NCBI RefSeq assembly: GCF_032854445.1
Contig: NC_088295.1
Location: 53,797,249-53,861,248, forward strand
DNA from: Liolophura sinensis
Lineage: Eukaryota; Mollusca; Polyplacophora; Chitonida; Chitonidae
DNA: 64,000 nucleotides
Direction of reading: 5' to 3'
Shown: piece by piece, positions 9,786-55,296 of the stretch
Numbering within the stretch: position 1 is the stretch's first letter
Layout: each line of letters begins with the position of its first letter
The notes under the pieces: generated by a model
Seen by the model: only the letters and a program-made list of their open reading frames with translations
Told to the model about the DNA's origin: nothing
Databases searched by the model: none
Made by a program: the position numbers and the translations under genes

Positions 9786-10014
9786 TGTCACTGTTACTAG
9801 TCTGGGCCAAGTAAGTATGTGAGAGAGGGCATGGTCACACACGCCTTCCATATATAGCAGCAACTACAAACAGTATCGGTCTGGGACACATCGCCTGTAC
9901 ATATTTCTTGTACTCTGTCCTGTATCGTCACAACAAGCGTGACCACGCATATACTATCATCAGCACGGATTGGACCTAGATTTACATTCAACCTTAGATA
10001 TTAGTCAACACATT

Positions 10015-22250: not shown

Positions 22251-25200
22251 GTAAGATGCGATGGTAATGTTAATGGTCACCTGTTCTGGTGATTCAGAAG
22301 AACAGTTCTTTTAGTCTGCTTTACACCTGTGTCTAATTCCGCCTAATCAGGGGCAAGGGACGGTGTATCCATCGAGTTGGGCAAGATTGGTGTATTGAAA
22401 TAAATCGCCACGTTGGATATAGCTCCAGCTCCAATTGCATGGGAATACAATCTAATAATGTCGAGAGAGCCGAAACAGCTGTGGAACGGTGTCAAAACAT
22501 CTCCGGACGGCTCTGTTGGAAAAGCAGTTCTGGAACGGCTTATTGGTCGAAATACGTCCAGAACGGCTAAAAATTAAAAAAAAAAACAGCAACACGGTTT
22601 TGTTTATCAAAACAGTTCCAAAACTCTGCCGTTTGTCAGTACAGTTCCACAAGGACTATTTGTCAACTGAGACATTTCAAGAACGGTTCTCTTTGTCAAA
22701 AAAGTATCAGAATGGGTTTATTCCTCAACAAAAAGTTCCAGAACGGTACTGTTTGTGAAAACAGGACCAGAAAAATTCTGTTTCTCAAAGAAATCACAAC
22801 CTGATTGCCAGATATTCCTTAACTAACCTGCATCATGTTTTTGGTTTTCCATTTATTTATTGTTCATAAAATTGGTTGTCGTTGGCTGTTTGGTTTACCT
22901 TAGCCACATCTACAGCCATCACTTGGTCACCTATACCTTTCTTCCCAAGGTGGGCGTGGCTGTAGGGTTTCTTATCCCCCCAGAGATTGTCCCCAACAGT
23001 GAAGACTTGGGGAAGGTGGGGCGAGACCTGAGGATTATGATGTACAGTACTGCCGGGGTCACCACAGCACTCTTCATACTTGTCCTCTTATGTAAGTTTA
23101 CTTCGGTGAATTCATTTACTTCTACCATTCCTCTTCCTTAATATTGATATTTACTCAGACGTTTTCCAAACCTGCGACTTTTAAGAAGAAACTGTAGATA
23201 AGTTTTGCCGCTGGAAATCTTTTAGCTTCGTATGCAGCTATGTTTTATACGAATAGTGACAATAAATACACGGCTGACAGAGGTACTTTCTAATCATATC
23301 CAGTTGTTTTGTGAATGGAACAACTAATATGTTCATACAAAATTGAACAAATTTGAACTTTCACAAACACTAAAAATCTTGTTAAATGCAAACATATTAT
23401 TACTGATTCATATAACGGTAAATCCGTGCATGAATTACTACATTAGTGATATTCTTTCAGTATAATCAAGGCTTCGACGAAGCACAGCACGATGTATAGA
23501 GAAATTGGGGAATTTCAAATATGTAGAAAAAAATGTAAAATGGAGACACTTGTACGATATCCAGTTGAATGTTATGTTTATATACATACGATGCAATGAT
23601 TCACAGTTTGCTTGAGTTGATGGTTGGAACAAAAGTCCCGTGACAAGGTTTAAGGCCACGGCAAATAACAGCATGAATTTTAATTCATAGATATCTGCGT
23701 ATTTAAATTTAACTTATATTTTTCTTCAACAAACCTATGAAGAAGTTATTTCACCTTGAATGTATTCTTGTTATTCGAGTGTCCACAAATAACTCCCCAT
23801 GCCATCAATCCCCCAAAACCATACGGTACAACCTCCTGAACGCGGTTTCGACGGTATACACGCCGTCCTCCATCAGTTCTGAACAGACAGAAGCGGCTTT
23901 CATCTGTGAAGACGACCCGTTGCCAATCACGTCGCAGACAACATCGTACAGTTAGGGCCCACCTCAACCTCTGACGACGATGTTGGGCCGTCAATAACTG
24001 CCATCTGCATGGTCGATAAGCCCGGATTCCATGATCCCGGAGTCTCCTTGACACTGTCTGCCGACTGAGCGGATGACTTAACGCATTCACAGTCAGGAAG
24101 CGATTTCACAAATGCCAGGCACGCAAGTACCGGTCTTCCCTGGGCGTGGTCACCCTAGGTCTGCCTGGTCTTGACCTGTGTGCCTGTAATGCTGCGTCAG
24201 ATTTGTAACGGTTACACGAAAACAGCCGAAGTTCTTGCAGTGTCAGCATGAGTGGCTAACATAGCCACCATACACAGGGCCCTCTCGTGTTGTTCTTGGA
24301 GTTGGTCGTGGCATAACTACGGTGTTTTTTAAGCACTGTGCAAGTCTGACATACTGGCTTGAACGTTTTATACATTTTTTGCACTTGCGGTTTCCGCCGG
24401 TCCACGGGTCACGTGGTTTTAAAATTTTTCTCTTTCTGTTGCAATGGCTTGGTATGTAGCTTTCCCCATAATGGAATATGCTTGGACTCTGATTTTTACA
24501 AGGTTGAGCAGACCGAATTCGCCGAAAACGTTTGTTACTTTTCATTTTATGAGTGGTAAAGTCTCTTTGGCCGTCAGTTTATGTAGGAATGAGACTTTAA
24601 ATATTGATTTCATTTATTTGATTGGTGTTTTACGCCGTACTCAAGAATATTTCACTCATACAACGGCGGCCAGCATTATGGTGGGAGGAAACCTGACAGA
24701 GAGCGTGGGAAACCCATGACCATCCGTACTGGCAGACCTTTCCACGTACTGTCGGAGAGGAAACCAGCATGAGCTGTACTTGAACACACAGCGACCGCAT
24801 TGGTGGGAGACTCCTGGGTCATTGCGCCGTGCTGGCATGCTCACCACCTCGGCCACGGAGGCCTCTATTAAATATTGGTATTTCAAAGGTATTTATACTG
24901 GTAAAACATTGCGGACGTTGTAAATAACCATTCACCAATTTGGGTAATTGAACAAAAACGACGTCGAGGACAATGCTTTTAAATATCACTAGTCATGTGT
25001 TCATGAGGCGAATACATATGTGAATGGTTGGGAACCTTTATATTCTGGTAAAGACTCAGGACGTTCCTTGTATCAATAGAGGGTTTACAGTCTTGCATGC
25101 ATCCTTAAAATCGCAGCACGATCTTCCAGTATTAACACCTTTGAAAGCCCAGAAGACGTAAAGCACCTCCACACCCAAGATTGCACACCCACCACTTATT

Positions 25201-35574: not shown

Positions 35575-35871
35575 TCACTTTAGGAATTTCATATGAGTAT
35601 ACAATCTCTCTTCATTAACAATTCGAGCCACTTTTTCTTTAATAGTCATTTCAATGTCCCCCACTTCAGTGTCCATGAGCTGACCTTGTGACCTCCCCAA
35701 AGCCATGGGAACAAGGACTCCGCTGGCGTTGGGTCCATTAGAGTTGGAGAAGTTACTGTTGCTTTGGTCTCCAGATCTACTGCCTCCAAAGGCACCTTTC
35801 TGTGAGGCTGTGTGGCTGGTGGGAAGAGCTCGATTCTTTGCTGTTATAGACTGTTCTGACATTTTCTGTGC
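35575..35871 (-). CDS. NADSYN1: NADSYN1 exon 19, long C-terminal extension
   Basis: 98 residues plus stop (TGA at 35577-35575). The acceptor is TTATTTATGGACAG, phase 0. It is Ser/Asn/Gly-rich and probably disordered, then has a helical end ([20 protein letters not shown]). Vertebrate enzymes have only a short tail after this junction. Confidence 0.85.
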   Translation of the reverse strand, partial: AQKMSEQSITAKNRALPTSHTASQKGAFGGSRSGDQSNSNFSNSNGPNASGVLVPMALGRSQGQLMDTEVGDIEMTIKEKVARIVNEERLYTHMKFLK

Positions 35872-38800
35872 CTGTCCATAAATAACAATCAGATGACACG
35901 GTCTTCTTTCATTGCTGATAACAGCTAAAATTTATTAGCCTGTGACTTTAGCCATAGCCAATCTCCACCATTTAGACAATATACTGAAACAATGCACCGA
36001 AATGGTGTACATGTAGACTGCTTTTTCTGGAGGTCGAAGTTCTCTTACAAAACACGCTTTTTTTGGTAGACGGCTAGTCTTGCAAGATGATCAACACCCA
36101 AATTATGGGAAAAAACAATAGACTCCAAAGTTTGAGCCCTGAGTTTTTTATTTATTTCATTGATGTTTTACGTCACACTCAAGAAAATTTCACTTATAAG
36201 CGAAAGGCAGACATCATTATTGTGGGAGGAAACAGGGCAGAGCAAGGGGCTGACTTGTTTAGACATGAATGGTACACTTGGCACAAATCATACATTTACA
36301 TTTGCCATCAGTACTCTGAGTATGAACTCCATGAGTGTTATGAAAATAAAAAAGGCCAGGGATTGGTTTAAATATGGAAAACAGGAATTTAGCAAAGAAA
36401 CTACCTCCCCACATGTGAGACACAGATTTAAACCTGCAGACCATTCATGATGTTGGTTATATCGGAGAAGGGCAAGTGATCATTCTACAACACTTCAACC
36501 ACTGAAACTCCCCATGAGCCTTGTCCACTGCTTATTGCCTTAAAACCCTGAAGAACAGTGGAGATTGAAGGAGTATCAAAGTTTGCCTCCCTGAACCTAG
36601 AAACAACCACTACCAGTTGTGTCCTACTACCTGAAAGACAGGGATTTAAACCAATTAGCCATTTTCATACCTGACTGTCTATGGCTTTAAACTGCCAGGG
36701 CCATTTGGCGTTATAGAGGAACTGCCTGTGGTCATGTCTGTTGTCATCTGGGCCATACGTCTCCGCATGATAGGCTGGCGTCAGCACTGTCATTTTGTGG
36801 CGGTTAATGGAATACCATCTGAAGAAGTGCTTCACCTTATCTGCAACCTGTATTCAAGAAGAAACACCAAAATGTCCCAGCCTCACACATCCTCAAACAA
36901 CCTCAGTCAAATCATAACTGGGTCTAACTGTAGCAGAGTAGATATACTGTTATGTTTCAGTGTTGCCTATTCAAAATGCAGTAACATATGTTGCGCAACA
37001 AGTTTCAATTCAGAATAATCAAATGTTTTGGAAACAAACGTGAACATGTCATAATGAAGTTACATGCACGCATCAAATTTCAATGGAACACAGCAGCCCA
37101 TGTTTGAAAACTGGATAAAAACAACCAAAATTTTGTTGAAAATGAATGGAAAACGTGATTCGTGATAGACTGACGAGGTATATACCTTGAGTTCTCTAGG
37201 ATTTTATAATAAGCCTTTCATCTATGACTGACAAACTGACTGACTGACAGAATGATAATAATTACAGACTCACCTGATATGGAGTCATCCGATCTCTCCA
37301 AGCATGGACTAACTTACAGAACATACTGTACGGCCCACATCTGAAAGGCCGTCTCAGTTTACCATATTGGGAAAGTTCCTCATACGTCATGCCCATGTCT
37401 TCCTGAAGATAATGGGTTACAGACAGTGGGGTATAGGTTTATAATTTGAGGCATCATAACAAGGCATCATGACAATACAAAGCATCATGACAATACAAAG
37501 CATCATGACAATGACAATATAAAGCATCATGACAAGTTAAAGCATCATGACAATGACAATATAAAGCATCATGACAATGACGATATAAAGCATCATGACA
37601 AGTTAAAGCATCATGACAATGACAATATAAAGCATCATGACAATGACAATATAAAGCATCATGACAATGACAATATAAAGCATCATGACAAGTTAAAGCA
37701 TCATGACAATGACAATATAAAGCATCATGACAATGACAATATAAAGCATCATGACAATGACAATACAAAGCATCATGACAATGACAATATAAAGCATCAT
37801 GACAATGACAATATAAAGCATCATGACAATGACAACATAAAGCATAATGACAATACAAAGCATCATCACAATACAAGGCACCATGATATTAAAAGTCACC
37901 TGACAATACTTCCTCTCCAGCCGTATGTAGGTCTGTCAGCAACTTGCGGATGGTCAGGGGTTTTTGGCCTGGGCTATGCCCGGTTTTCTCCCACCATAAT
38001 ACTGGCCGCAGTTGTATAAGCAAAACACTCCTGAGTACAACGTAAAAACACCAATCAAACAAATAAATAAATCAATCAAAAGTGAAAAGATGTTATGCTT
38101 AGACAACTCAGCCTGTTAGGTCCACAAGCATTCTTCACTTTCACGTACTGTTATAGGGGTACGACGTTAAACCCCAAGTACTCACTCACTCACATACTGT
38201 TATAGTTTTACAGAATGTACAGCTCCATGAAACAGCCACCACCCGTGACCTGACTGTGATGGGGCAGAGCCTGCAGTTTACACCTACCTCATCTGTCTGT
38301 GCTATCTGCCCTTCCACTAGAGGTTCCAGCTCTGCTGTGGGCTGGGCAGCGTAAATCCTTCAGGAAAAAGACAAAAAATATGCAACACGAATGATGAGAG
38401 GTAGAGAAACATTGCAGCATCAAAAAAAAAATATATATTCTATTTTAGTCATCAACAGAAAGTGTAACTTGAATAGTACAAACAGTAGAGGACAGGATTA
38501 TAAAGTCTTCCATATGTATGTTAAGCTCAAGTCAGATCAAAGTCTTGACAGACGTGACAGACATACAGTCATCTATAGGGTACTTCTTGGGCTCCACAAT
38601 GGGAGGTAAATATTGTAACCCATGGAATAGCCCATAACAATAACAGCTATGGTTATTCAATTACAATTAGTTGCTACGACTTGTACATGTATACGAAGTC
38701 TTATTGAAATCACTGGGAATTACTATAATTGTAAATGTAGAGGGCACTAGTGTTCCATATGTTGAAAGAAGCGGGGGTGTACTTTGTAAAGACTAGGTTA

Positions 38801-41800
38801 AAAAATAGGATGCCTGCAGTGTACTTGAGGTATAGCAAGAGGTATAGCAGGAGGTATAGCAAGAGATATAGAAAGAGGTATAGCAAGAGGTATAGCAGGA
38901 GGTATAGCAGGAGGTATACCTAAGGTATATGATAACTAATGCAAACTGTTACTAACTACTAATACTTAAACCATGCACACAATAATATATTTACCCTTCT
39001 AAAGCTGTCAGTCCAAACTTCTTGGAACAAAACTTGATAAAGCTTCGCAGATCTGTTTTACTGATACCTCCTATGGGGTTGACATCTGCGCTAGAACAGT
39101 CGTACTTTGTCATGTACCCACGCAGGCTGCAAGGTATTAAAACATAAGTATTTTTATGTAATAAAACTGAAAAGTACGTCATCAAGAGAGGGATAATAAC
39201 AGCTATATATAAATATCACCAAATATCTTAATACGTACAAGCATGTCATTGTTGTAATATTCTTTGCCTTGTTTGACTGCATGTACTACACAGTTACCTT
39301 CATATATCTTCAAAAATTTTTTGTAATTCTTTTTATTTCCTTCACCTGTAAACAGCATGCAAATAAGTTGGTGTCAAGATTGTAGATCTATGATGGACAT
39401 ACACACTTCTAACTGACCTTTCATCAACATTAGCCGATCCCAGCACAAGAAGTCCCCCTGAGCGACCTCGTGCCCATAACACCAGCTGTGCAAACAGGTA
39501 GGCCAGTACCATCCTCAGACGGGCCTAAGTCAGGAACAGATTAGGATTTGTTTTCTTTTTACAAAGGTGAAATATCAAGTTATTCCTTTCCTCATAAAAT
39601 GATATTTGACATAATTAGACATAATTTTAGTTACATTATACATTTTCTGGTATTTCATATCACATGTTTCATGCTCTTCCATTCTGTGTTCAGTGTTATG
39701 ACAGGCAGACTAAAAGACATGGCCGTAAGTGGGAAGGTCCGCGAGCAAACCTACAGATGGTCGTGGGTTTCCCCCGTGCTGTGCCCGGTTTCCTCTCGCC
39801 ATAATGCTGGCTGCCGTCGTATAAGTGAAATATTCTTGAGTACGGCATAAAACACCAATCAAATAAATAAATAAGTAAAAGACATGGGTTTAACAAATAT
39901 CATTGGGCCAACATTGTCACAGAGGTACCAGTGTTATTCCAAACCGGTGACTTTAACATTAGCACCAGCCATATAGAAGAAGGTAAGAAACTTCATACAA
40001 TACCTGAACATTTTGCATTGCTAAATTTTCTCGTAGGGTTCCTCCCTTTGCTTTAAACTTTGGCATGCACTTCATGGCAGTGGTAAAAATACTGAGAGTG
40101 GCTGCGACAGCAACGTCTATGCAAATGTTGAGGTGATAACTGTGAACACAAAAATAGCGACAATTTTACATACACATACATACATACATACATACATACA
40201 TACATACATACATACATACATACACCAAGATAATACAACAAGATAATACACCACAAATAAATGTACACTTGTCTACAACAGCAGAACTGGTCTTTTCCTT
40301 TCACAAAGATGGTTGAAATACTTGGCAGGGCATCTGCACCTTTGAACCTAATGAATCAAATGCATCATCTCAGACTGAAATCAAGATTCCCTGACATTTA
40401 CATGTAGTCTTTGTAAGAGCTATTTACAATTAGGAAACCAGTAGTCTCTGATTGGTCATTTCTGTGGGTATACTGTCCCTTAATTATCATTTTGTGAACT
40501 CCCTCAAGGGAGTACATGGGTGAAAGAAATAGGACCCCAGGCACATAGGCACAAAAGACAACTAACCAAGAGCTCTCCTGTTTACCTGGGTCCAGAAAAT
40601 AGAATAGGCCCATATCACTTTAAATATACATGTAACTGTGTCCTAGCTGGTACATATGCCACTACCGTCATATGGTGGGAGGAAACTGGGCAGGCCCCAG
40701 GGGGGAAACCCCACCACCATATGTGGATATTGCATAAGAACTACATTTCATGTGCTTTTCAAATTTGAACTAACTTTATTTCAGCAGGTTTCTAAAGCTA
40801 GTCTGTCCTGATTGTAATGGCCAAAATATGTTGTCTTTATGTATGTACACGATCTGTATTGCTAGGATAAATCTCCAAAATCCATAGGCATAGCATTGTA
40901 ACTTGTGATTTAGTCTTTTATTTGTTCACTGTTTTTGGTGGCAAATTCACTGGAAAAAGAATGGGGACGCCCTTGCGTGTCTAACGAGTGTAGGGATATG
41001 AAGCCTATAAACAGTACAGTAGCATCTTCTTAGCTTGATTAATTGCAACTTTTGTTTTCACGACCATTGGGTGACAGAGTCGCCTCCCTTGGATTGTTAA
41101 TTTAAGTGATCTGTTAGATTTTTGTTTCGTGGTAATTGCTGTACGTTTGTGGCTAAATTGAACGTTTTAGATGTTGTGCTTTATATACTCAAAGCAGTAT
41201 TGTAAGTTTGTACAGTAAGTAGTATGAGCCTAAAGAATCGTTGTGTATTTGCAGATATTTTGTATAATTCATTCATATATACAATCATGTTCGGTACATA
41301 TTACTTATACAGCACCATTTTCTTTGTTTACAGTCAATCACATCACCACATCATCACATTAGCACATCAACTCATCCCAACCATCGCATCATTGATCACT
41401 GCATCTCATGTACAGTCAAGTGTCATATACTACTGCGTCAGCAGACTGTCATGATCTTGAGTAAAATGGACATGCCTGTGTGCTTTCATTTGATGTGAAT
41501 TGCGTTGTTTCATAACTCTAAGCGTTATACTGATTTTATATATTATAATTCTCATGTTGAAAGACAACGGTTATATATTCTTGTCCCCAGTTGGCTGAAA
41601 AACTGCCAATTCGGTGTTAAACCCTAATCCATTATTTACCCATACATTTTTTCTTCAGGTTGAAGGCAAGTATGTCGATGAGTCTGATGTATTTACCTGC
41701 CAATCTGCTGGGCCAGGTTTGTAGCCCTAGTCTTGGTTTCCTGAGAGCTGTTTTCTGAGCCCATGTAGCATGTTGTGAACAGACGGCCACACAGTTCCTG

Positions 41801-44800
41801 GGGGTCTGTAGGGGTGTACGTCTTGTCTCCTACCACACGACGTATATCCTCCAAAACACTTCTATCTACACAACAGGAGAAACGAACACAAATAATGAAA
41901 CAGCCAAGCACTTCTGATAACAACTGCAATTAAATCTGTGATGGCTTCAAACACAAAGCTTGTCCGTTACAAAAACTAATTCACATTTGCAACAGGAAAT
42001 TTCATTTAAAAGTAGAATTTTCACTGTAAATTCCCCAATTATTCACGCTTACTTGAAATCACATTTAAATGAGATTTCAGCACTGTAGTGTCACAGAGTG
42101 ATGCACCTGGCTGCCTGAAGCCACATGGCTGTTCTTGGTTCACAAATCTAATGCTGCTGTATGAGAGCTCCATAACAATCTTTAGATGAGTGCTGATATA
42201 CCATTTGTCAAATGCAATGAATATGACTAAAATAGTGTAATCTGGATGATGTCAGAACAGAAAAAGTCACCAAGCCACTATCTTGGGTTTAAATCAAGGT
42301 TTTACACAACCAATATCAAAATGGCTCCTGTATGTGTTAATTAAGCTGGTTTAAATATATATAGAAACTGGAAGATTTTTAGGAGTTCTAAGTGAACAAA
42401 GAAAGTGTACACTGTGTATCTTAGATTGTATTGAAGACCAGTACCATTCAGTAATTTCTACTGTCTGAAAACCTACTCCAGGAACATATACCATCCGACT
42501 GTATTTTAACGAGAACAGTACATCATTTTTATATTGTTGATAGTAAGCAAGTAACTCTCTGGATCTACTACTGGGCCTGGTTAAATTTTACCACTTATCA
42601 CTGAAACGAGCAACATAGCAAATGTTATTGTTACATAAGATCATTATAAAAGAGTGAGTGAGTGAGTGCTTGGGGTTTAACGTCGTACTCAACAATTTTT
42701 CAGTCATATGACGACGAAGGAATCCTTAGGGTGCATGTACATGTAATGTGCCTCCTTGTAGCAGGACGGATTTCCACCGCTCTTTTATCTAGTGCTGCTT
42801 CACTGAGACGACTTACCGAAGGCCAGTAAGCCGACCCGACCGAGCCATTATACTGATACGGGTCAACCAGTCGTTGCACTATCCCCTTCATGCTGAACGC
42901 CAAGTGAGGAAGTTACAACTTCCTCTTTTAAAGTCTTAGGTGTGACTCGATCAAGGATTGATCCTGGATCTACCGGTCTATTATAAAAGAGCTCATGTGT
43001 GTAATACTACATGTAGGTAGCTGTTATACTAATGAACAGAGGGTATACCTGTATATGAATACCCCCTTGAAAAGTTACTGTTAGTTTTACATATATAGTT
43101 AATATCAATTCAATAGAAATCTGTGTATAGTGAAACAACTGTCCAATCAAGCGCAGATTTAAGGATTAGCGGATAAAAGGAGTCATTAGTTAGGATGGCT
43201 CCCTGATGAGATGGATTTACATGGCTCCCTGATGACCTGTACATATCTTCGTTAATTATTGCTTTGTATTGTTGTCATTTATGACAACAATACTATGGTT
43301 ACCATTAGGTATACTCTATATAAATAAAACTGCCTCAAACCTTTGGGGAAGAATCATTGAAGGTTGGATTTAGAGTCAGGGCTGAAGAGTTGACCTGAAT
43401 AAAACATCGGTTATTAATGTTAGCAGATTGTTTAAGTGTTCTCGAGTTGTTTCACGATTCCACTACCAGATGAATGACAATCCTGACAACGACCATCAAG
43501 GTGAGCCACGAAGATGTCCCATCCACGGTCATATCTGGTTACCACTAACCCGTGACTCTGTTGATCAAGTATGAAGTTGTCTACGATGCACTACATTGTA
43601 TATGGTCTTTGATCATGTTATATCAGGTTCATCTAAATTTTATATATACTGTACAGACTTAGTAGATACCCTTTTGTGTGAATGAATGTGTGCATGAGGG
43701 ACTCAACTAACTAACTGATCTCCCTTAGAAAGGAAAGTGTTACTATTATTATTATTATGTGTATTTTAAATGTGTAGGCACCATGCGAGCCTAAAGCTTT
43801 AAGTACGGTCAATAAAAATTACAATTATTACAAAATAGGTAAAAGCCATTTCCACATTTAACCCAAGTTTCATGCTGGCCAGACCAGAACGGACTCGAAC
43901 ATAAGTTGCAGCTGTATGACTTACCCTCTTCTCGTACTGCCTGACAGACTAGGCGGCACATGGAGAACACAACACAGGCTGTGGACGAGCTGTCAATGCC
44001 CCCACTGAGGGGTAAGAAATACCCTCCCTGCCCACTCCTCCTCAGGTAGTCCCACAGCCAGCAGGCAGGACCTAAACTGTACAGAACCATCACACACCAG
44101 TGACAACGGGATGTTGACAAATACTAAGTTGTGAAGACATCGTTGCATGTTGACTGACTGTATGCCATACTCAAGATTTTTCCCCTTTAATGATGTCATG
44201 ATTTCAGGTGAGGAGGAAACAGGTGTGTCCGGGATAAACCTCCGGCAAGTGCTTGCCCACCTCTTCCCACCCCAAAATGCCCAAAAAGAACCTGTTAAAG
44301 GGCAAGGAAATTTTTATAAAATACTTTCTAATGAAGAATCTCATGTTTTTCCAACTGGGATACCACACTACCTCCAACAAACCCTAAAACACCTGTCTGG
44401 GATCAACAGAATCAAGCCAAATGTGTAACTTATTCACTGACAAAATTTAAAACCAAATACATCATTGACGAACTTCAACATCTACATGTATGACATACCG
44501 ATTTTTTGTGCAATCCTAGTGGAGGACAAGTCATCTCTGACAAATTTGAGGCTGCTCAAACAATCCTATGAGCTCCTCTGACCGCATACTGTCACCAAGG
44601 CCCATGCTAACACAGACATCACAGGAATCTGTATAAAATTTACAGTCCACGGCTCTATCCTGCACCTCTTGTGCCTCTAGGTTAGGGGTCATGCGACTTA
44701 CTCAATAAGCTATATCCTGTTCCCCCACTGTTGGAGATACGTGTATACTACAACTGCTAAGAAAAAATGTCCACAATACCTGATCTCTTCTTCAGCGGTG

Positions 44801-47800
44801 TGGTACTGCCATTGTATAGGGGAGTACACAGGCAGCCCCATGTCATCAGCTGGGCTGCACAAGGCTACATCACACTGAACTCTGGGATACGCTGGGGCCA
44901 TGGAACCCTGCAACAAGAAAGATGGCGGAAAAATGGGATAGGCTGGAACCATGCAATCCTGCAACATGAAAGATGGGATGAAATGGGGCAGTCTATAGCC
45001 AGAGGACCTTGAGAAATGGAAGATGAGGTGAAAACTTAGATAGGCTGTAGCCACAGAACCTTGCAACATGAAAGATCAGGCAAAACCTGAGATAGCCTGT
45101 AGCTACAGAACCCTGTAACATGAAAGATCGGGTGAACCCTGGGATAGGCTGTAGCCCTGCAACATGAAATATCAGAGGAAACCTGGGATAGGCTGTAGCA
45201 ATAGAACCCTGCAACATGAAACATCAGGTGAAACCTGGGATAGGCTGTAGCCTTGGAACTGCAACATGGAAGATCGGGTGAAACCTGGGATAGGCTGTAA
45301 CCTTCGAACCCTGCAACATGGAAGATCAGGTGAAACCTGGGATAGGCTGTGGCCATAGAACCCTGCAACATGGAAGATTGGGTGAGATCTGGGATAGGCT
45401 GTAGCCTTCGAACCCTGCAACATGGAAGATCAGGTGAAACCTGGGATAGGCTGTAGCCTTGGAACCCTGCAACATGGAAGATTGGGTGAAACCTGGGATA
45501 GGCTGTGGCCTTGGAACCCTGCAACATGGAAGATTGGGTGAAACCTGGGATAGGCTGTAGCCTTGGAACCCTGCAACATGGAAGATCGGGCGAAACCTGG
45601 GATAGGCTGGGGCCATGGAACCCTGCAACAAGAAAGATGGCGGAAAAATGGGATAGGCTGGAACCATGCAATCCTGCAACATGAAAGATGGGATGAAATG
45701 GGATAGTCTATAGCCAGAGGGCCTTGAGAAATGGAAGATGAGATGAAAACTTAGATAGGCTGTAGCCATAGAACCCTGCAACATGAAAGATCAGGCAAAA
45801 CCTGGGATAGCCTGTAGCTACAGAACCCTGTAATATGAAAAATCAGGTGAAACCTGGGATAGGCTGTAGCCATAGAACCCTGTAACATAGAATATCAGGT
45901 GAAACCTAGGATAGGCTGTAGCCTTGGAACTCTGCAACATGGAAGATCAGGTGAAACCTGGGACAGGCTGTGGCCTTGGAACCCTGCAACATGGAAGATT
46001 GCGTGAAACCTGGGATAGGCTGTAGCCTTCAAACCCTGCAACATGGAAGATCGGGTGAAACCTGGGATAGGCTGTAGCAATAGAACCCTGCAACATGAAA
46101 CATCAGGTGAAACCTGGGATAGGCTGTGGCCTTGGAACCCTGCAACATGGAAGATTGCGTGAAACCTGGGATAGGCTGTAGCCTTCGAACCCTGCAACAT
46201 GGAAGATCGGGTGAAACCTGGGATAGGCTGTAACCTTCAAACCCTGCAACATGGAAGATCGGGTGAAATCTGGGATAGGCTGTGGCCATAGAACCCTGCA
46301 ACAAGGAAAATTAGGTGAAACATGGGATAGGCTGTAGCCTTGGGGTTCTGCAACATGGAAGATCGGCTGAAACCTGAGATAGGCTGTAGTCTTGGAACCC
46401 TGCAACATAAAAGATCAGGTGAAACCTGGGATAGGCTGTATTTATAGAACCCTGCAACATGAAAGATGGGGTGAAACCTGGGATAGGCTGTTGCCATAGA
46501 ACAATGCAACATGGAAGATGAAAAGAAAACTCAGCTAGGCTGTAGCCAGAGAACCATGCAGCAAGGGAGATGTGATGAATGATCACAAAATTTGGCTATT
46601 CTCCCCTATAAAGGCTGATTCGGTCATAGCAAGGAGCCAAAACAGAATGGCTGAGAACCAGTGGTATCTACATGTAGCTATAGGCCTCCCAAATCACCAC
46701 TGCACTCAACGTCAAATGTCTTCCATGTTGTAGTAGAAATAGTTTTCTTATTCAGTCACAGAAGGATTGTCTGATGGAATGTCTGTACATTCACAAGTAG
46801 ACACTGACTCCTGATGGATTGTCAGTATACTTATATGTAGACAGCGACTTCTGATGGAATGTCTGTACATTCACATGCAGACACTGACTCTGATGGATTG
46901 TCAGTATACTTACACGTAGACAGCGACTTCTGATGGAATGTCTGTACATTCACATGCAGACACTGACTCCTGATGGATTGTCAGTATACTTACATGGAGA
47001 CAGCGATTTCTGATGGAATGTCTGTACATTCACATGTAGACACTGACTCCTGATGGATTGTCAGTATACTTACATGGAGACAGCGATTTCTGATGGAATG
47101 TCTGTACATTCACATGCAGACACTGACTCCTGATGGATTGTCAGTATACTTACATGTAGACAGTGACTTCTGATGGAATGTCTGTACATTCACATGTAGA
47201 CACTGACTCCTGATAGATTGTCAATATACTTACATGGAGACAGCGATTTCTGATGGAATGTCTGTACATTCACATGTAGACACTGACTCCTGATGGATTG
47301 TCAGTATACTTACATGTAGACAGCGACTTCTGATGGAATGTCTGTACATTCAGAAGTAGACACTGACTCCTGTTGGATTATCAGTATACTTACATGTAGA
47401 CAGCGATTTCTGATGGAATGTCTGTACATTCACATGTAGACACTGACTCCTGTTGGATTGTCAGTATACTTACATGGAGACAGGGATTTCTGATGGAATG
47501 TCTGTACATTCACATGTAGACACTGACTCCTGTTGGATTGTCAGTATACTTACATGGAGACAGGGATTTCTGATGGAATGTCTGTACATTCACATGTAGA
47601 CACTGACTCCTGTTGGATTGTCAGTATACTTACATGTAGACAGCGACTTCTGATGGAATGTCTGTATGCTCGCACATCCTCCAGGTCCAAGCACGCAGTC
47701 AGCACAACCTAAGTGCAGAAAGAAGCAAATAATGGAGTAAAGCAGATGGTATTTTTCTTTCACAAGTACTCTCATAAACATGTCCGATTATTTAAATGTA

Positions 47801-50800
47801 ACAAAACCATGCAGATTCAACTAACAGCTTAGAACCCTCAGGGAAAATCCATATAGAAAAGTTACTTACTAGGCAGAGATTGGAACACCTGACAAGACTA
47901 CTCCCAACAAACCTTCAAAGAACATGTACCTGTAAAGTCTTTTCAGAGCACATCCACAATTATCTGGACCTAAAACCTTTTTCAAGATGTCACCTCATCA
48001 TGAAACTGGGGTTATCCTGAACTAGTTCCTCCATTGTTAATGTTAATCTTACCACTTCTCTGAGAGAGAATTGTGGTCCTTGGACAACAATGTCCCCGTT
48101 GATTGCAATCATTGCACATCCGTCGTAGTACAGTCTGTCTCCATCACATCCAATCTGGTTAGCAAACAGGTAGATGCCACCAGACTGAATGAAAAAAAGA
48201 AAATAAACTGTTTTATAATATGGTAAACTCTGCAAAACTTTCATGGTTAAGGGGAGGTAAATCCAGTGATGAAACAGCCATGCGGGTATAGCTTTCAGTT
48301 GATTGCTGATACAGAACTAACGACTGGGCATTACAATTTAGTATTCCGAATCTGCTGAATTTTCCAAAGACAAAAAAGAGAAACACTCTTGACAATGACA
48401 CTAAGACACCAATCCAATACTTGTACGTCATGTAAATAAATAAATGAATAAATAAAGTTCATTCTGGTGCAACGAAGTGATTAATGTTGAAAGCCAGGTG
48501 AATGCCCACCTTTATGGTGACCGACTATGTGTACCAGGATTATTGGTGGAGGAAATCGGGCAGAATGCGTGGGAAACCCACGGCCATTTGCAGGTTACCG
48601 GTAGACCTTTCCATGTACGGGCAGGAGAGAAAGCCACTGAGAGCCAGACCTGACTCACAGCGACCACACTGGTGAGAGGCTCCTGGGTCGATGTGTCGGG
48701 CGGGTGTGCTAACCACCTCTGCCACGAAGGCTCCCAACATGTGGTGATGAATGATGAAGCCAGATAAATGCCTGCAGTAACGGTAGCTGATATGTATAAC
48801 ATGTATTAATACAATGTAGTGTAGTGTGAAGACGAATGATGAAGCCGGATGAATGACTGCCTTTATGGCAACTGAGCTGTGTAACATGTGAATACAACAT
48901 AGCACAATGTGATGATAAATGATGAAGCGAGATGGAATTGCCACCTTCATGGTGGCTGAGGTGATGAGATCTACACGAGTGTAAGCCTTCCTCAGCTCGT
49001 GGTGACTCCCGCTGCCGTTGGTTATAATCTCCACCCCATCTAGTCCCATGGCAACGTGGTTACTGTTCACACAACAAACAGAACATGGTTACTGTTCACA
49101 CAACAAACAGAACGTGGTTACTGTTCACACAACAAACAGATTTCCCTTCACAATCTGACAAACTCTGTTTTGCACAACACTCAGTATATCGCAAATATTT
49201 TGTTCATTACCATTCTAAGGACAGACATTAGCATACATTACTTCTGCAGTGATTAACCACTTTAAGTGACACTGCAAACTTTTATGAAACTTTCTTCGGT
49301 CCAATTTTCTTTTCTCTTGGTATAACTTTCCCATTTTAACACCAGTATCTGCAAGGTTTCCGAAATTGGCCCAAATAAGTCACACACGTATGTATTTTAA
49401 CTATATCTAAGTTTCCTTTGTTTTAAAAGAGTAGGCAAAAGTTTTGCATGCATCAAATCCTGCTCATACATATGTTGACTGATATGTTAACATCTACAGA
49501 TAACACATGGTATAACGGAATATAGACATAAACATGGGTTGAAAGGTCATGACCAAAGCCTGAATGTATCACACATTTGTACTTGAAATTGATCAAAAGT
49601 TAGTATGTTTTGTATGAACAACATCAAGGAGACACACTGTATGTTGAGTATTTATAAAACACACATGTCCCCCTTTTGTACCTGAGCACATAAAGCTCCC
49701 TGGGATGAGTGAATAACTTGGGGATAATAATGGCAATAAGCACACTGGAAGCCCTAACTATCTAAATAATACCTGAGAAATTGTGTCCACAAGACAACAC
49801 ATTTCCTGTATAATAAGAAAACGTCCAAAATCTGCAACACACAGACAGGGGCAAACAGACAGGTGCAAAATCAAGATGCCCACCTCCGCCCCCAAACCTC
49901 ACCCCCTCCACCTTTATTCACAGGTAGACATACACCCAAATATACCTGAGGTAGTTTTCAATGAAGTATATTACCTAGAAGCTGCCCACAGCTCCTCACA
50001 CATCTCACTGCCTATACATGTATCCAGAGTTGACACTACCCCGTCACCAAATGGCACCGACCTCTGTCAACAACAATACAGATTTAATTCATAACAGTAT
50101 CGTAACTAAACTGGTCCATTTACAATTAAATTGATTCAGTTCAAGGAAGCACCTGTAAGCATTTGTCGGTCAGGTTTATTTCCATTACTTTCAAATCTGT
50201 CCATGTAACCTTGAGCTTCCAGTACCTATACAGAGGGACATCAGAAATGACACCACTTGCCATCTCCATCTTGTCACAGCTAGTATACTTTCCTTTCAGG
50301 TTTAAATTCCTTTTTTCCATCCTGATGATTATTTTGACTTGCATGTTCAAAACAAAAATTAATTGTAAAGACTTTAGTCCTTTAAAACTCATAACAGAAA
50401 AATTGGGTGCAATGACAGAAAGACAGAATTGAAGTCTCAATTCACAACTGAAAGTTATGCATATAGTGACGAAAAATAAGACTGCCCTTAAAGAGCTGCT
50501 TCCCCTCCAAAAGAAACTAGGCAGAAATTTTAAAATGATCTGAAGGAATCCATACTGAAGTGAGCTAACACCATGGTTCAACAGGATCCATAAAAATTGT
50601 ACAGTCCTCAAAAACAGGGTACTCTGAATTTGCCCGTTTTGACGTGATAATATTCCTTCTGTGACGCTGAATCAGGCAGATATGAAGTCGAGTAAAGAAA
50701 ACATACTTGCGCTATTCTGACAGGCAAAAGTGGAAAAGACAGAAAACTTTTTTTGTGGTTTTTGTGCATGTATGCTCTTATTGTAATAATGGTGGAAATA

Positions 50801-53800
50801 CTCAGTAAATTTTTAACCAGTAAAATTTTATCATGTAACCCTACTTTAAATGCATAGTGGCTTTGATACTAGAGTACCTCATTACTACATTACATAAGCC
50901 TCGCAGAGACTTAGCCTCTAAGCTTACCTGACCAGTTATGTCTCTAATAATACCAGGTAAAAAATACTCCTCTGTCTGTTGTTTTTTGGCCCAGCATGAA
51001 AACCAGCGGGTTTCCCGATAATTTCCATCATCACATAGAGTAGTCTTTGGACGGATCAGCAGGATCTTTCTGTACAAATTAAAGACAAGCTTTAAGTATT
51101 TTAGAACTAGTCACAGGTAACAACAACGGCTATCATGCATGTTTCTCATTCATCTGAGATAAACAGATACAGCCATGACCCATACAGCCTCATGCAGAAT
51201 TTGAGGTGAGCATGAGGCTTTAAGTAGCCTGAGAGTGTAATTAGCATGACATTGTAACTAGCAAAGCCATATCACAATGCTTAATTTTCATATCTGGCAG
51301 AAACAGAGGAATTTATTTATTTATTTATTTGATTGGTGTTTTACGCCGTACTTAAGAATGTTTCACTGATAAGATGGCGGCCAGCATTACGGTGGGAGGA
51401 AACCGGCCAGAGCCCGCGGGAAACCCACAACCATCCGCAGGTTGTTGACAGACCTTCCCACGTACGGCCCGAGAGGAAGCCAGCATGAGCTAGATTTGAA
51501 CTCACAATGACCGCATTGGTGAGAGACTCCTGGGTCATTACACTGGGCTAGCACGCTTACCGACTTAGCCACGGAGGCCCCCTAAACATAGGAATTAAAC
51601 ATTTTAAAAATTCCTTAACATGGATTCTCATTAACACATAAAAGAAGCGTGAAAGCTAGTAATAAATTTTGTAAATTAAGTTCATTAACATTTGCATGGA
51701 ATCAATCAACATTGGGACAGCCACCATCATCTTACTGTGATTTACATGTATGTAAAACCTGAGCTCCAGACATGCACTATGTTTTGAGACATCAGCCATA
51801 ACAGTTAGCTTATCGTTCATTCTACTCCACAAGTGGTGAATTATGTAATTTATAATAATTAATTCAACACAGAGCATCAACAATGAAACATCCCACTCAT
51901 GTTACTGTGTTTCATACGCATGCACAAAATTAGTTCAATACATGCAGTAATTTTAAAGATATTTTCTCTAACATTTACCTTAACATTACTTTCATTGTTA
52001 CTGGATGCTGACACCAATGCTCGGGGAATGACACTACCAATGTCTATATTTTGTTTTCAAGTCAGAGTTCAAACTAAAACAGTGTTTATACATTTTGGAA
52101 AGAAAATTGGTGACTTCCTAGTTGCTTTACTTATGTTCTCTCGCTTTTGAATACTCTTTGCAGATGTGAAAAAAACTGACATCTATGACTATGACAGTTG
52201 CTGAAGGTGAGATATGACAACTGCTGAAGGTGAGCTATGACTATGACAACTGTTGAAGGTGAGCTATGACTATGATAACTGCTGAAGGTGAGCTACGACT
52301 ATGACAGATGCAGAAGGTGAGCTATGACTATGACAACTGCTGAATGATTGGACAATCTGCTCACTTGAACTTTCCAACAAAGCCACTATCATGACTTAAC
52401 AGGCGAAGAACAAAACAAAGGACAGAAATGATGCAATGCTGTTTTAGAATAAGTCTATTTATCCTAATTACTAGATTGATGTTTAATGCCATGCCTAAGA
52501 ATTTTTCATTTATATGACAGTATTCAGGTTTATGAGCAGGGAGAGCAGAGCGCTAAGAGTTACCTGTAAGCACAACCCTTTACCATGTACATGACATAAA
52601 TGTTGACAATGTCAAAGTGAAGCTTCTCAGGCTAGATTCCCACAGATGACTTCATCTGTCACAGGCTAGAAAGTCACACATAGCCTTGCAAAGCTTTAAC
52701 CATACGAATATGACACATGTATGTCGCCATTTTCTAAAGGAACACTTTTATGACTTATTGGTTTATATTCAAATAATTCCAAACCATATGAACATCTTGC
52801 CATAAATCGTAAAAATAAAACAGACTGCGCCTACATTTGATGTGTTTTACACACTGAGTTTTGCAAAATGGCACATGTACTCCTACATGGAAAATGTACA
52901 TACATTGTAAATGGAGTTCTGAACAGACATGACAGCTAATTACATGTACATGTAACAACATGTAATTGGTGCATACGTACTTGTTGTAGAAGTACACTCT
53001 GCAGTTATAAGCCACATTCTTGTGCATCACTGGCCTGTAAAGAGCAAAATGTCAACATATTTCATTTCTTTACTTTATCTTATTTTCAACTCTGGATCAA
53101 AACTGTAGTATGGAAAATTAAACGAATAAAACACGTTATAATTTAAGAAATAAAAAAGAAAAAACACAAAAGAAAGTATGACACAAAAGAATGTATTTTG
53201 TCAGTCATTTGCATAACAAACCCCTTGCGGAAACATCCAATTACATGATGGATGTTGTTTTAAGAATTGTCGATAGGGATAAATGCCAAACCTTACATGC
53301 CCACATCTGCAAGGATATCCTGACAAGAGTTGTGATTAAGCAGTTCTGCCAGGACTTGAAAAGAGTGTAGGAACGTGTCATTCTCCAAAAAATGGTCAGC
53401 ACAGCCATAGCCTCTGAAATGTCAACATGTTTGAAGTCAGTGAAATCTTTGAAATATTAACATGTTGCAAGTGAATGAAACCTTTGTCAACATATTGTAA
53501 GTGAGCGAAATGCCTGAATCGTCAACATGCTGTAAGCCAGTACATGTAACACTCTGAAATGTTTTACACCTGTAAACTCTGAAAGGTCAACACATTCTCT
53601 GAAAACCACTGTAGCCTCTGAAATGTCAACCCACTGTCTTACACTTATTGTGACCTCTGAAATGTCAAGTCCCTGTCCTACACCTATCGTGGCCTCTGAA
53701 ATGTCAACCCACTGTCTTACACTTTTTGTAGCCTCTGAAATGTCAGCCCACTGTCTTACACCTATTGTGACCTCTGAAATGTCAATCAACCAACTGTCTT

Positions 53801-55296
53801 ACACCTATTGTGGCCTCTGAAATGTCAACCCATTGTCTTACACTTGTTGTAGCTTGTAACATGTGAACCCACTGTCTTACACTTATTGTGGCCTCTGAAA
53901 TGTCAACCAACTATCTTACATTCGTTGTAACCTCTGAATTGTCAACCCAATGTCTGACACTATTGTAACCTCTGAAATGTCAACCCATTATCTGAAATGT
54001 CAACCCACTGTCTTACACTTTTTGTAGCCTCTGAAATGTCAGCCCACTGTCTTACACCTATTGTGGCCTCTGAAATGTCCACCAACTGTCTTACACCTAT
54101 TGTGGCCTCTGAAATGTCAACCCATTGTCTTACACTTGTTGTGGCTTGTAAAATGTCAACCCATTGTCTGACACTATTGTAACCTCTGAAATGTCAACCC
54201 ATTGTCTGACACTACTGTAGACTCTAAAATGTCAAAACACTGTCATACACTATTGTAGTTTCTGAAATGTCAACCTACTATCTTACACTATTGTAGCCTC
54301 TGAAATGTCAACTCACTGTCTTGCACTCGTATCCTCTGAAATGTCAACCAACTTTCACTATTGTAACCTCTGAGATGTCAACCCACTTTCACTATTGTAA
54401 CCTCTGAAATGTCAACCCACTTTCACTATTGTAACCTTTGAAGTTTTGTACAGTTTTCACGTTAACTCGCACCAAGAACATACACATGCAGCAGTTGATG
54501 TTGATGTCATGAAATCATGCGCCGTAGAATGTTGTCAAATGATGCTCAGATGGTCCAGGCACGATGGTTACCATGGTGGCGCCATGTTACGCGAATCCTG
54601 ATTGGATTGTAGGCCCATCATACATATACAAAGGAACATGATCTGACCATGGTGGGCACACCATACGCCGACCATGGAACAATGATGGGCATGTAGGATA
54701 TTCGGCCGGAATGCGGCTGTACTGTATATAGCTGCCTGAGGCAGCATGGGTCCTTTCCACAGTAGACTAAAAGGTATACTTAAACTATGGTACATCTCAG
54801 AGTTATGACACGTACTTTCAAAACTTAACAGTTTATCCAGTTAGGTATGAGGTAATAGCACCTTACGTAATCTCGAGTTCTGGGCCCAACCTGTAAGTAG
54901 CACCCTTCGCCTTCGCCTGGCGGAAACCTACAAATACAGAAATCTGATAAACTCACTAACATACATGTAAGCCTACATCATACACATCTGCTTAACATGC
55001 CTAACGCTGGAGAACTCTTCATTGCTATAACTGTGAATTAGCCACCTGGTACCGTGCTAGAAGGCTATCTAATCTCAGTTTTACAGTTGGTGCTTCATAC
55101 AATCGGGGAACCAACTGGGCGGTAGCTTATCTGCAGTGTACCGCCTAGGCCTACTACACTGGCCTTAGCCATTCCACGCGTTGATATACGATCAAAACAG
55201 TTTTTACATACTCTCTAAAATCCTTGTCATGTTCCCTTCAAAATCCATTGCCCACTGGTTCAGGGAACATGTTGCCAATGTTACTTTGCGCCCCAT
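35575..55296 (-). CDS. NADSYN1: Glutamine-dependent NAD+ synthetase, complete, 19 exons
   Basis: Coding exons in order: 55212-55296, 54867-54927, 53297-53413, 52981-53034, 50928-51069, 49975-50063, 48945-49062, 48053-48184, 47634-47708, 44780-44907, 43925-44076, 41697-41865, 40004-40139, 39418-39524, 38995-39126, 38288-38357, 37274-37402, 36671-36847, 35575-35871. Total 2370 nt, 789 residues, no in-frame stop. The enzyme converts nicotinic acid adenine dinucleotide to NAD+ using ATP and glutamine in the cytosol, the last step of the de novo and Preiss-Handler routes. The N-terminal nitrilase-type amidase triad is visible as E45 (RLGPELEI), K114 (LLIRPK) and C175 (GSEMCEELW). The synthetase half has the PP-loop SGGIDSS at 358-364, then LGSANVDE and [20 protein letters not shown]. 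Human NADSYN1 has 706 residues; the surplus is a C-terminal extension from the last exon. Four splice sites are overrun by minisatellites (see findings). The start ATG has A at -3 and G at +4. Confidence 0.97.
36145..36255 (-). mobile_element. SINE family A, 3' fragment
   Basis: TTTATTTATTTCATTGATGT, TTTTACGTCACACTCAAGAA and TTGTGGGAGGAAACAGGGCA. The head is missing. Lies in the last NADSYN1 intron. Confidence 0.8.
36671..36847 (-). CDS. NADSYN1: NADSYN1 exon 18
   Basis: 59 codons, phase 0 both ends. Contains [40 protein letters not shown] and WPWQFKAID, conserved in the eukaryotic synthetase C-terminus. Confidence 0.95.
37274..37402 (-). CDS. NADSYN1: NADSYN1 exon 17
   Basis: 43 codons: [20 protein letters not shown] then [25 protein letters not shown] is a synthetase-domain signature. 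Confidence 0.96.
37450..37880. repeat. 24-bp minisatellite in NADSYN1 intron 16
   Basis: Units AAAGCATCATGACAATGACA plus ATAT, about 18 copies mixed with 15- and 18-base short forms. Being multiples of three, the units keep a minus-strand frame (HCHDALYC repeated) open for 140 codons; it has no support as a gene. Confidence 0.93.
37917..38068 (+). mobile_element. SINE family A, 3' two-thirds, plus orientation
   Basis: GCAACTTGCGGATGGTCAGG, TTTCTCCCACCATAATACTG, a GCAGTTGTATAAGC block and ACACCAATCAAACAAATAAA. The tRNA head is missing. Confidence 0.85.
38145..38195 (+). mobile_element. SINE family B, 3' end fragment
   Basis: GGGGTACGACGTTAAACCCC, AAGTACTCACTCACTCAC: the inverse of the tail of the element at 42655. 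Confidence 0.6.
38288..38357 (-). CDS. NADSYN1: NADSYN1 exon 16
   Basis: Encodes [20 protein letters not shown] then TDE, enters phase 2, leaves phase 0 at GTAGGT. Confidence 0.94.
38825..38932. repeat. 12-bp minisatellite AGGTATAGCAAG
   Basis: About nine units of AGGTATAGCAAG / AGGTATAGCAGG within NADSYN1 intron 15, ending about 60 bases from the exon 15 donor. Confidence 0.9.
38995..39126 (-). CDS. NADSYN1: NADSYN1 exon 15
   Basis: Contains [20 protein letters not shown] and [16 protein letters not shown]. The Asp and Asn/Gly cluster belongs to the NaAD/ATP site of the family. Confidence 0.96.
39418..39524 (-). CDS. NADSYN1: NADSYN1 exon 14
   Basis: Contains [20 protein letters not shown] and [13 protein letters not shown], phase 2 at donor GTCAGT. 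Confidence 0.96.
39718..39876 (+). mobile_element. SINE family A, plus orientation, head truncated
   Basis: GTCGTGGGTTTCCCCCGTGC, GGTTTCCTCTCGCCATAATG, GTCGTATAAGTGAAATATTC, TTGAGTACGGCATAAAACAC and an (AAAT)n tail; close to consensus. Confidence 0.92.
40004..40139 (-). CDS. NADSYN1: NADSYN1 exon 13
   Basis: Contains [20 protein letters not shown], a Lys-rich loop and [14 protein letters not shown]. The last stretch is a strong family signature. Confidence 0.95.
40167..40224. repeat. (CATA)n microsatellite
   Basis: About fourteen TACA units, starting 27 bases upstream (transcript sense) of the exon 13 acceptor. This replaces the usual region of branch point and pyrimidine tract. Confidence 0.95.
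40655..40735 (-). mobile_element. SINE family A, core fragment
   Basis: TATGGTGGGAGGAAACTGGG and GGGGAAACCCCACCACCATA. No tail or head. Confidence 0.6.
41697..41865 (-). CDS. NADSYN1: NADSYN1 exon 12
   Basis: Contains [40 protein letters not shown] and [11 protein letters not shown], phase 1 in, phase 2 out. Confidence 0.96.
42655..42985 (-). mobile_element. SINE family B, nearly complete
   Basis: Plus-strand reading: GAGTGAGTGAGTGCTTGGGG, TTTAACGTCGTACTCAACAA, TTTTTCAGTCATATGACGAC, CTCCTTGTAGCAGGACGG and GTGACTCGATCAAGG. On the minus strand GGATCAATCC matches a B box, giving a tRNA-derived head. It is distinct from family A in every block except the idea of a TTTACGCCGTACTCA-like end. Lies in NADSYN1 intron 11. 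Confidence 0.8.
43925..44076 (-). CDS. NADSYN1: NADSYN1 exon 11 with PP-loop
   Basis: Contains [15 protein letters not shown] then [27 protein letters not shown] is the ATP pyrophosphatase P-loop that adenylates NaAD. Confidence 0.97.
44780..44907 (-). CDS. NADSYN1: NADSYN1 exon 10, acceptor replicated upstream
   Basis: Encodes [20 protein letters not shown] and [13 protein letters not shown], phase 0 in, phase 2 out. The acceptor CTTGTTGCAG|GGTTCCATGG is the first of about thirty similar copies running to 46590. This nearest copy gives the family-length junction [15 protein letters not shown]. Confidence 0.93.
44908..46590 (-). repeat. 52-bp minisatellite made of copies of the exon 10 acceptor
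   Basis: About thirty units. In minus sense each reads ATCTTCCATGTTGCAG|GGTTCNAAGG then CTACAGCCTATCCCAGGTTT. That is a splice acceptor plus the first 25-30 nt of exon 10. A 715-bp block is itself duplicated (44912 and 45627 carry the same AACAAGAAAGATGGCGG). Most units keep TTGCAG|GG intact. A unit of 52 shifts the frame by one each time, so every third acceptor is in frame with exon 10. Confidence 0.95.
46755..47666 (-). repeat. 80-bp minisatellite made of copies of the exon 9 donor
   Basis: About eleven 80-bp units, each a dimer of two related 40-bp halves (GACAGCGATTTCTGATGGAA... and GACACTGACTCCTGATGGAT...). The last unit runs 33 nt into exon 9. In minus sense each unit reads ACATTCCATCAGAAATCGC, TGTCTCCAT|GTAAGTATAC. 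Ten of eleven donor copies keep GTAAGTATA (the one near 46831 is mutated). Confidence 0.95.
47634..47708 (-). CDS. NADSYN1: NADSYN1 exon 9, 3' end part of a satellite unit
   Basis: 25 codons: [20 protein letters not shown] then SRCLH, phase 0 both ends. [10 protein letters not shown] is conserved. Its last 33 nt and donor (CAT|GTAAGT) match the repeat unit at 46755-47633. Confidence 0.94.
48053..48184 (-). CDS. NADSYN1: NADSYN1 exon 8
   Basis: 44 codons: [20 protein letters not shown] then [20 protein letters not shown]. This is the end of the amidase domain. Confidence 0.97.
48531..48735 (-). mobile_element. SINE family A, tail missing
   Basis: TTGGTGGAGGAAATCGGGCA, GGAAACCCACGGCCATTTGC, CACAGCGACCACACTGGTG and GCCACGAAGGCTCCC. 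Lies in NADSYN1 intron 7. Confidence 0.88.
48945..49062 (-). CDS. NADSYN1: NADSYN1 exon 7, acceptor triplicated
   Basis: Contains [20 protein letters not shown] and [15 protein letters not shown]. The donor is the weak AAG|GTGGCA. Its acceptor GTGTGAACAG|TAACCACG is the innermost of three 29-bp tandem copies. Confidence 0.95.
49056..49140 (-). repeat. 29-bp repeat, three copies, spanning the exon 7 acceptor
   Basis: Plus-sense unit GTGGTTACTGTTCACACAAC then AAACAGAAC, exactly 29 apart (first bases at about 49055, 49084, 49113). Each carries the full pyrimidine stretch and AG of the exon 7 acceptor. Confidence 0.95.
49975..50063 (-). CDS. NADSYN1: NADSYN1 exon 6 with catalytic Cys
   Basis: Contains [20 protein letters not shown] then EELWAAS. 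C175 is the amidase nucleophile that forms the glutamyl thioester. Confidence 0.97.
50928..51069 (-). CDS. NADSYN1: NADSYN1 exon 5 with catalytic Lys
   Basis: Contains [20 protein letters not shown] and RWFSCWAKK then [17 protein letters not shown]114 lies in LLIRPK. Confidence 0.97.
51311..51582 (-). mobile_element. SINE family A, full length, best copy
   Basis: Plus reading: (ATTT)n, GATTGGTGTTTTACGCCGTA, CCAGCATTACGGTGGGAGGA, CCACAACCATCCGCAGGTTG, GAACTCACAATGACCGCATT and CTTAGCCACGGAGGCCCC. In minus sense the head GGCCTCCGTGGCTAAGTCGG is an A-box-like tRNA start. Its reverse complement of TTTGAACTCACA matches a B-box position. Confidence 0.95.
52170..52345. repeat. 29-bp minisatellite in NADSYN1 intron 4
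   Basis: About six units of GCTATGACTATGACAACTGC then TGAAGGTGA. Not related to a nearby splice site. Confidence 0.9.
52981..53034 (-). CDS. NADSYN1: NADSYN1 exon 4
   Basis: [17 protein letters not shown], phase 2 in and out, donor GTACGT. Confidence 0.95.
53297..53413 (-). CDS. NADSYN1: NADSYN1 exon 3, acceptor replicated upstream
   Basis: Contains [20 protein letters not shown] and [11 protein letters not shown]. The acceptor TTGACATTTCAG|AGGCTATGG is the innermost copy of a 39-bp array. Confidence 0.96.
53405..54440 (-). repeat. About 39-bp minisatellite made of copies of the exon 3 acceptor
   Basis: Plus-sense unit GCCTCTGAAATGTCAACCCA then CTGTCTTACACTTATTGTG, roughly 25 units. In minus sense each holds GGGTTGACATTTCAG|AGGC, the same as the true exon 3 acceptor. 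Units next to the exon (53414-53600) are the most diverged; those in the middle are most alike. Confidence 0.93.
54867..54927 (-). CDS. NADSYN1: NADSYN1 exon 2 with catalytic Glu
   Basis: [19 protein letters not shown], phase 1 in, phase 2 out, donor GTAAGG. E45 in GPELEI is the amidase general base. Confidence 0.96.
55212..55296 (-). CDS. NADSYN1: NADSYN1 exon 1, start codon
   Basis: ATG at 55296 (sense GAAGATGGGG). Encodes [20 protein letters not shown] then GNMTRILE, matching the family N-terminus residue for residue in length. The donor is GAGA|GTATGT, phase 1. Confidence 0.95.

Follow-up and report, generated by a model that had tools for sequence, protein, structure and literature searches.

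Minisatellite-like tandem duplications of exon-intron boundaries have been described in amphioxus under the name of mirages, in Adh3 and in the globin genes BflGb6 and BflGb9 (PMC3087553), and PGBD5 and TnC have been added to the lancelet genes that carry them (PMC3902484). Both 5' and 3' boundaries are hit, the units measure from tens to about 160 bp, and many of the repeats bear splice signals (PMC3087553, PMC3902484). Regular splicing is reportedly undisturbed, according to Adh3 data and RT-PCR of the globins; the Adh3 mirage shows length and somatic instability, and copies at the boundaries of a cluster are excluded from homogenisation (PMC3087553). In the accessible text of these reports mirages are treated gene by gene, and in lancelets (PMC3087553, PMC3902484).

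Several other systems bear some resemblance. Human segmental-duplication genes have internal tandem repeats that sit at exon-intron boundaries and change gene structure; coding exons hold half of the repeats, and the boundary ones are tied to novel introns and alternative transcripts (PMC2812944). Tandem genomic duplication carrying AG/GT signals is a described route of intron gain (PMC4974935), and the Rogers model of intron gain by tandem duplication is cited in PMC3087553. As to intronic minisatellites, the abalone TSSK1-like gene has in its intron 3 a 27-bp unit with 62 repeats in the example given, varying between individuals (PMC6905558), and an intronic VNTR of ABCA7 affects splicing (PMC5954066). 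The former is, like the arrays below, a long molluscan intronic minisatellite; unlike those arrays, neither has a splice junction described inside its unit in the accessible text of the respective report. Short simple repeats are mentioned for Conus introns (PMC3862624). Among the literature matches listed, which cover few subscription journals, none describes a minisatellite spanning a splice junction in a mollusc, and the letters of a dispersed repeat sought in the literature gave no match.

The window analysed here is a stretch of 64,000 nucleotides from the chiton Liolophura sinensis. That the genome is molluscan and not cephalochordate follows from a tandem run of eight PF14830 molluscan haemocyanin domains (C8:37880506-37891931, best E 3e-41), which we take to be the layout of the molluscan eight-unit haemocyanin. 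The span singled out by a first-pass annotation of the window coincides exactly with the coding sequence of NADSYN1, and the following features were placed in it.

35575..55296, minus strand: coding sequence of NADSYN1 (glutamine-dependent NAD+ synthetase), 19 exons with consistent phases, 1089 bits to 6OFB.
53411..54442 (core 53615-54442, about 21 copies), minus strand: 39-bp array extending up to the acceptor of exon 3 (53297-53413); TRF, own-junction score 34 (core).
53411-53486, minus strand: row of diverged 35-bp units that abuts the acceptor of exon 3; TRF, own-junction score 44.
49053..49140, minus strand: 29-bp x 3.0 array with the exon 7 acceptor (exon 7, 48945-49062); TRF, own-junction score 65.
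46765..47666, minus strand: 80-bp x 11.3 array with the exon 9 donor CAT/gtaagtat (exon 9, 47634-47708); TRF, own-junction score 90.
44882..46571, minus strand: 52-bp x 32.8 array with the exon 10 acceptor (exon 10, 44780-44907); TRF, own-junction score 52.
48739..48933, minus strand: 85-bp x 2.3 array in intron 7, adjoining the exon 7 donor; TRF, homology up to donor +2.
37487..37858, minus strand: 24-bp array inside intron 16, a counter-example; own-junction scores 8 and 12, equalled by 216/224 and 76/224 controls.
52183..52344, minus strand: 29-bp array inside intron 4, a counter-example; own-junction scores 8 and 10, equalled by 219/224 and 163/224 controls.

The exon borders were set from splice sites, phase and the match to human NAD synthetase (6OFB, residues 1-695, 1089 bits). 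The resulting gene has 18 introns, all GT-AG, and 790 codons counting the stop. The alignment to the human protein has a sole gap of one residue, within exon 10, and no exon ends are inserted or missing. Thus, unlike in intron gain, no new intron is seen in NADSYN1 against the human protein, and the alignment runs across the junctions; unlike in the human segmental-duplication genes, the exons match protein-family length. Intron gain by tandem genomic duplication is also said to have been described by Zhuo in 2007. Elsewhere in the window we noted a nested repeat at 366-1321 (480-bp unit x 2, with 101-bp and 51-bp arrays within), open frames at 3161-4175 (+) and 23746-24105 (-) that by eye resemble pieces of Tc1/mariner-type transposases, and a 93-bp x 2 tandem duplication (31 codons long) at 10211-10403 inside the open frame 9943-10626 (+), which is possible coding sequence.

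Four of the NADSYN1 arrays, one at a donor and three at acceptors, contain the junction that they adjoin, as the first-pass annotation had proposed. Their own-junction scores (34-90) were reached by none of 224 other junctions from the same genome. Each array reaches into coding sequence, by 3-4 bp at exon 3, 10 bp at exon 7, 33 bp at exon 9 and 26 bp at exon 10, and the earlier reading of the four arrays as mutually unrelated in sequence was upheld. By eye, the 80-bp exon 9 unit is a dimer of about 40. The earlier assignment of the arrays to the exon 3, 7, 9 and 10 junctions stood; the border of exon 10 had to be moved 26 bp further in, to 44907. There the acceptor reads ttgcag/GGTTCC and agrees with phase and human length, whereas a border near 44881, at the outer array edge, has the wrong phase and makes the exon too short against the human protein. 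Within the 52-bp array, a higher-order duplication is visible by eye: the diverged exon-proximal units at 44894-45000 reappear together some 720 bp away (about 45613-45745), and the dip in score is repeated. The 85-bp array of intron 7 was a candidate for a fifth member, sited at the donor of exon 7. It has a self-score of 40 over donor +2..+38, and it was dropped from the class on the ground that its exon part was equalled by 22 of 112 control exon ends.

A search of the 609-Mb genome with the 52-bp and 80-bp units found no second locus at the sensitivity of the search. Both units therefore seem to have originated in place, and spread of a unit by a mobile element was rejected on the same evidence for these two. 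With four of its seven array families at junctions (expected, 0.54), NADSYN1 by itself gives a P value of 8e-4, which is an unfair test, since the gene was chosen for showing the pattern.

A larger sample was drawn blind to repeats. We located exons in the 609-Mb genome for four protein families, the CCT chaperonins, myosin heads, kinesins and SNF transporters, disregarding repeats. Of 382 listed exon matches 373 were used; the other nine, mostly rows crossing several stops, were left out by hand. Stretches were picked by exon density, and a second batch came from pieces shorter than 4 kb, which biases the sample to short introns. Ab initio exon prediction made only three predictions on NADSYN1, one of them exact, against 19 exons, and was too poor to enlarge the sample. 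With borders called from splice score, phase and profile continuity, 95 introns were retained from 104 exon pairs (39 kinesin, 21 myosin, 18 CCT and 17 SNF; nine pairs with unclear borders were dropped), comprising 70,735 bp. The TRF filter demanded a period of 20 bp or more and a score of 50 or more; these limits were chosen once batch 1 had been looked at, and the P values below should be taken with this in view. The filter left 18 rows, which became 16 families once the two arrays of like unit in each of L019 and L035 had been merged. From the same stretches we also assembled a single-edge sample, in which 106 of 144 edges considered were kept, the 38 others having unclear borders, and arrays within 600 bp were counted. 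The TRF runs on the gene strand used for the sample missed the diverged 85-bp array of NADSYN1, and diverged arrays are accordingly under-counted. Because points inside one array descend from one seed and are not independent, each array was collapsed to one unit in the null model, and a seed of equal length was dropped anywhere on the introns, with partial overlap of exons permitted.

Of the 16 families in the 95 introns, nine have their own junction within the unit (expected, 2.17; P = 3.8e-5), a rate of nine junction arrays per 95 sampled introns. Under a within-intron null the expectation rises to 3.39 (P = 1.3e-3). Five families lie at donors (L005-5731, L022, L024+3022, L025, L037) and four at acceptors (L019, L027, L032, L035), while the internal families are L005-4609, L012, L024+6948, L030 (twice), L042 and L048. 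Eight of the nine junction matches were equalled by none of the 224 controls. The ninth, L027, first read as internal and then reclassified, rests on a weak match with two of 224 controls equally high, and the statistics are given both ways: counted as internal it leaves 8/16 (P = 3.4e-4 under the uniform null, 6.8e-3 within introns), and dropping L037 (1.8 copies) as well leaves 7/15 (P = 1.0e-3 and 1.6e-2, respectively). The units of these nine families include between 6 and at least 60 bp of exon. The 66-bp unit of L025, for instance, contains the last 44 bp of a CCT exon with its donor, and the 95-bp unit of L032 the first 48 bp of a myosin exon with its acceptor; L035 has a 32-bp acceptor unit repeated 43 times and L022 a 31-bp donor unit repeated 18 times. 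One of the internal arrays, 47 bp x 21.6 in the kinesin intron of L024 that starts at 6948 (+), has a GTAAGT donor motif in its unit and yet no match to its own junction, and could be an older array of the junction type that has lost its link.

The single-edge sample yielded 13 arrays, of which three contain the junction (expected, 0.64; P = 0.021). When both samples are pooled, 12 of 29 arrays lie at junctions (eight donors and four acceptors outside NADSYN1), against 2.81 expected under uniform seeding (P = 2.3e-6). The first-pass annotation had named coincidence of array edges with splice sites at chance level as the result that would count against its claim; as checked on this sample, the coincidence is about fourfold in excess and does not refute the claim. 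Internal arrays in the pair sample also lie close to exons more often than expected (four of seven within 60 bp; expected, 1.44; P = 0.037), while those in the edge sample do not (one of ten; expected, 1.05); both samples together give P = 0.09.

We then looked at the individual copies. In 16 junction arrays, 12 from other genes and four from NADSYN1, 192 junction copies were located, each with at least 20 of 30 bases matching, a requirement that favours copies keeping the dinucleotide. GT or AG is kept in 182 of the 192, and in 81 the splice score equals or exceeds that of the true site; in L035, from a myosin intron, 38 of 42 located acceptor copies match the real one in strength. For L022, L024, L012, the 60-bp L025 array and NADSYN1 exons 9 and 10, the median copy falls short of the true site, which could be mild selection against decoys. 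Conservation of the splice columns was assessed in 11 of the 16 arrays (L012, L027, L032, L037 and the NADSYN1 exon 7 array were left out), and their mean rank among all unit columns is 0.53. The copies therefore bear no sign of selection for splicing, as neutrality predicts. Unit length is not a multiple of 3 in 12 of the 16 arrays. The exon-proximal site agrees exactly with protein-family length in four of nine junction introns and deviates by at most 12 bases in the others; from this fit and from homology, splicing probably takes place at the exon-proximal site.

Like amphioxus mirages, the Liolophura units span an exon-intron boundary together with exon sequence, affect donors as well as acceptors and keep AG or GT in many copies. 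The first-pass annotation had known of no described class with this behaviour; in structure the arrays are mirages as reported from amphioxus (PMC3087553, PMC3902484). They differ from the amphioxus cases in their mollusc host, in coming from genes sampled blind to repeats, in having a rate (9/95 introns) and a measured excess, and in reaching 43-46 copies. The comparison is made from the sequence of one assembly, and the splicing and instability data belong to amphioxus.

We consider it probable (roughly 0.77) that the arrays are mirage-type minisatellites, that is, tolerated tandem duplications spanning a junction which are hidden because the exon-proximal site serves splicing. A segment of about 25-140 bp that happened to span an exon-intron border would have been duplicated in tandem, with slippage or unequal exchange presumably multiplying it afterwards. 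The exon-adjoining copy would be kept intact, as it holds coding sequence and a working splice site, while the remaining copies would be intronic and spliced out, making the event almost invisible to selection. Exon definition, the pairing of the sites nearest to an exon, may be what renders dozens of equally strong copies harmless. Once born, the intronic copies would evolve as a neutral minisatellite. Of the two ideas in the first-pass annotation, a preferred start point for duplication and tolerance of arrays in which the spliceosome still uses the terminal copy, the latter appears to fit best. We favour it because the splice columns show no special conservation, most units are not multiples of 3 and the exon-proximal site fits family length. 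These same observations speak against selection for spare splice sites, whether for redundancy or for regulated alternative splicing: the retained dinucleotides are what such selection would produce, yet the splice columns are no more conserved than the rest of the unit, and splicing at an inner copy would in many cases change the reading frame. We regard it as very improbable.

It is distinctly unlikely that uniform seeding and tolerance, in introns so short and repeat-rich that some arrays touch junctions, are all that is at work. Much of the NADSYN1 introns is indeed array sequence (3,818 of 17,352 bp above single units), of 1,019 control points in these introns one in four has a self-similarity of at least 60, and the within-intron null already accounts for 3.4 of the 16 families. 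Base composition adds to this, array units having a GC content of 0.43-0.44 and junction windows of 0.43, against 0.37 in intron interiors; the GC preference raises the odds, and GC-richer exon edges can account for about 1.7-fold of the roughly fourfold excess. Even so, the 12 junction arrays among 29 exceed the GC-weighted expectation of 4.45 (P = 3.1e-4, or 1.5e-3 with L027 internal). The 2-3-fold excess beyond base composition could be caused by a duplication hotspot or by sheltering from large deletions. A mutational hotspot, at which junctions, or transcription or R-loops across them, initiate duplication, would account for the persistence of the excess after GC weighting; the widely varying exon part of the units, however, gives it no fixed start point, and the exonward lean of internal arrays, present in the pair sample and absent from the edge sample, would suggest a broader effect of exon proximity. 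A hotspot is possible, if rather unlikely. That lean is expected if exon-adjacent arrays outlast others, as large deletions that erase an array would also take the exon edge. An old, anchored end is likewise suggested by the exon 3 and exon 10 arrays, in which the exon-proximal copies are among the most diverged. The edge sample without a lean, the exon 9 array without such divergence and the percent match, by eye alike in junction and internal arrays, all count against sheltering, and we hold it to be unlikely. With one assembly, a mutational hotspot and longer survival near exons are inseparable.

The junction arrays are thus a real and recurrent structure of a class known from lancelets; what is new is the phylum (as far as searched), the rate of 9/95 and an excess that is explained in part. 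At a little short of even odds, junctions genuinely give birth to minisatellites in animals as distant as lancelets and molluscs; with about one in ten sampled introns affected, this genome would then possibly hold thousands of tandem splice-site arrays with up to dozens of near-identical competing copies, and each array would be a ready-made test of how the spliceosome chooses the exon-proximal site. The L035 myosin intron is such a natural experiment on site choice: of its 42 acceptor copies, 38 have the strength of the real site, and the last is presumably the one spliced. In such introns, gene finders and the mapping of short reads will probably put exon borders in the wrong place, as the 26-bp misplacement at exon 10 illustrates. 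The occurrence of mirages above chance in a repeat-blind sample of a mollusc suggests a general route for intron growth and for spare splice sites.
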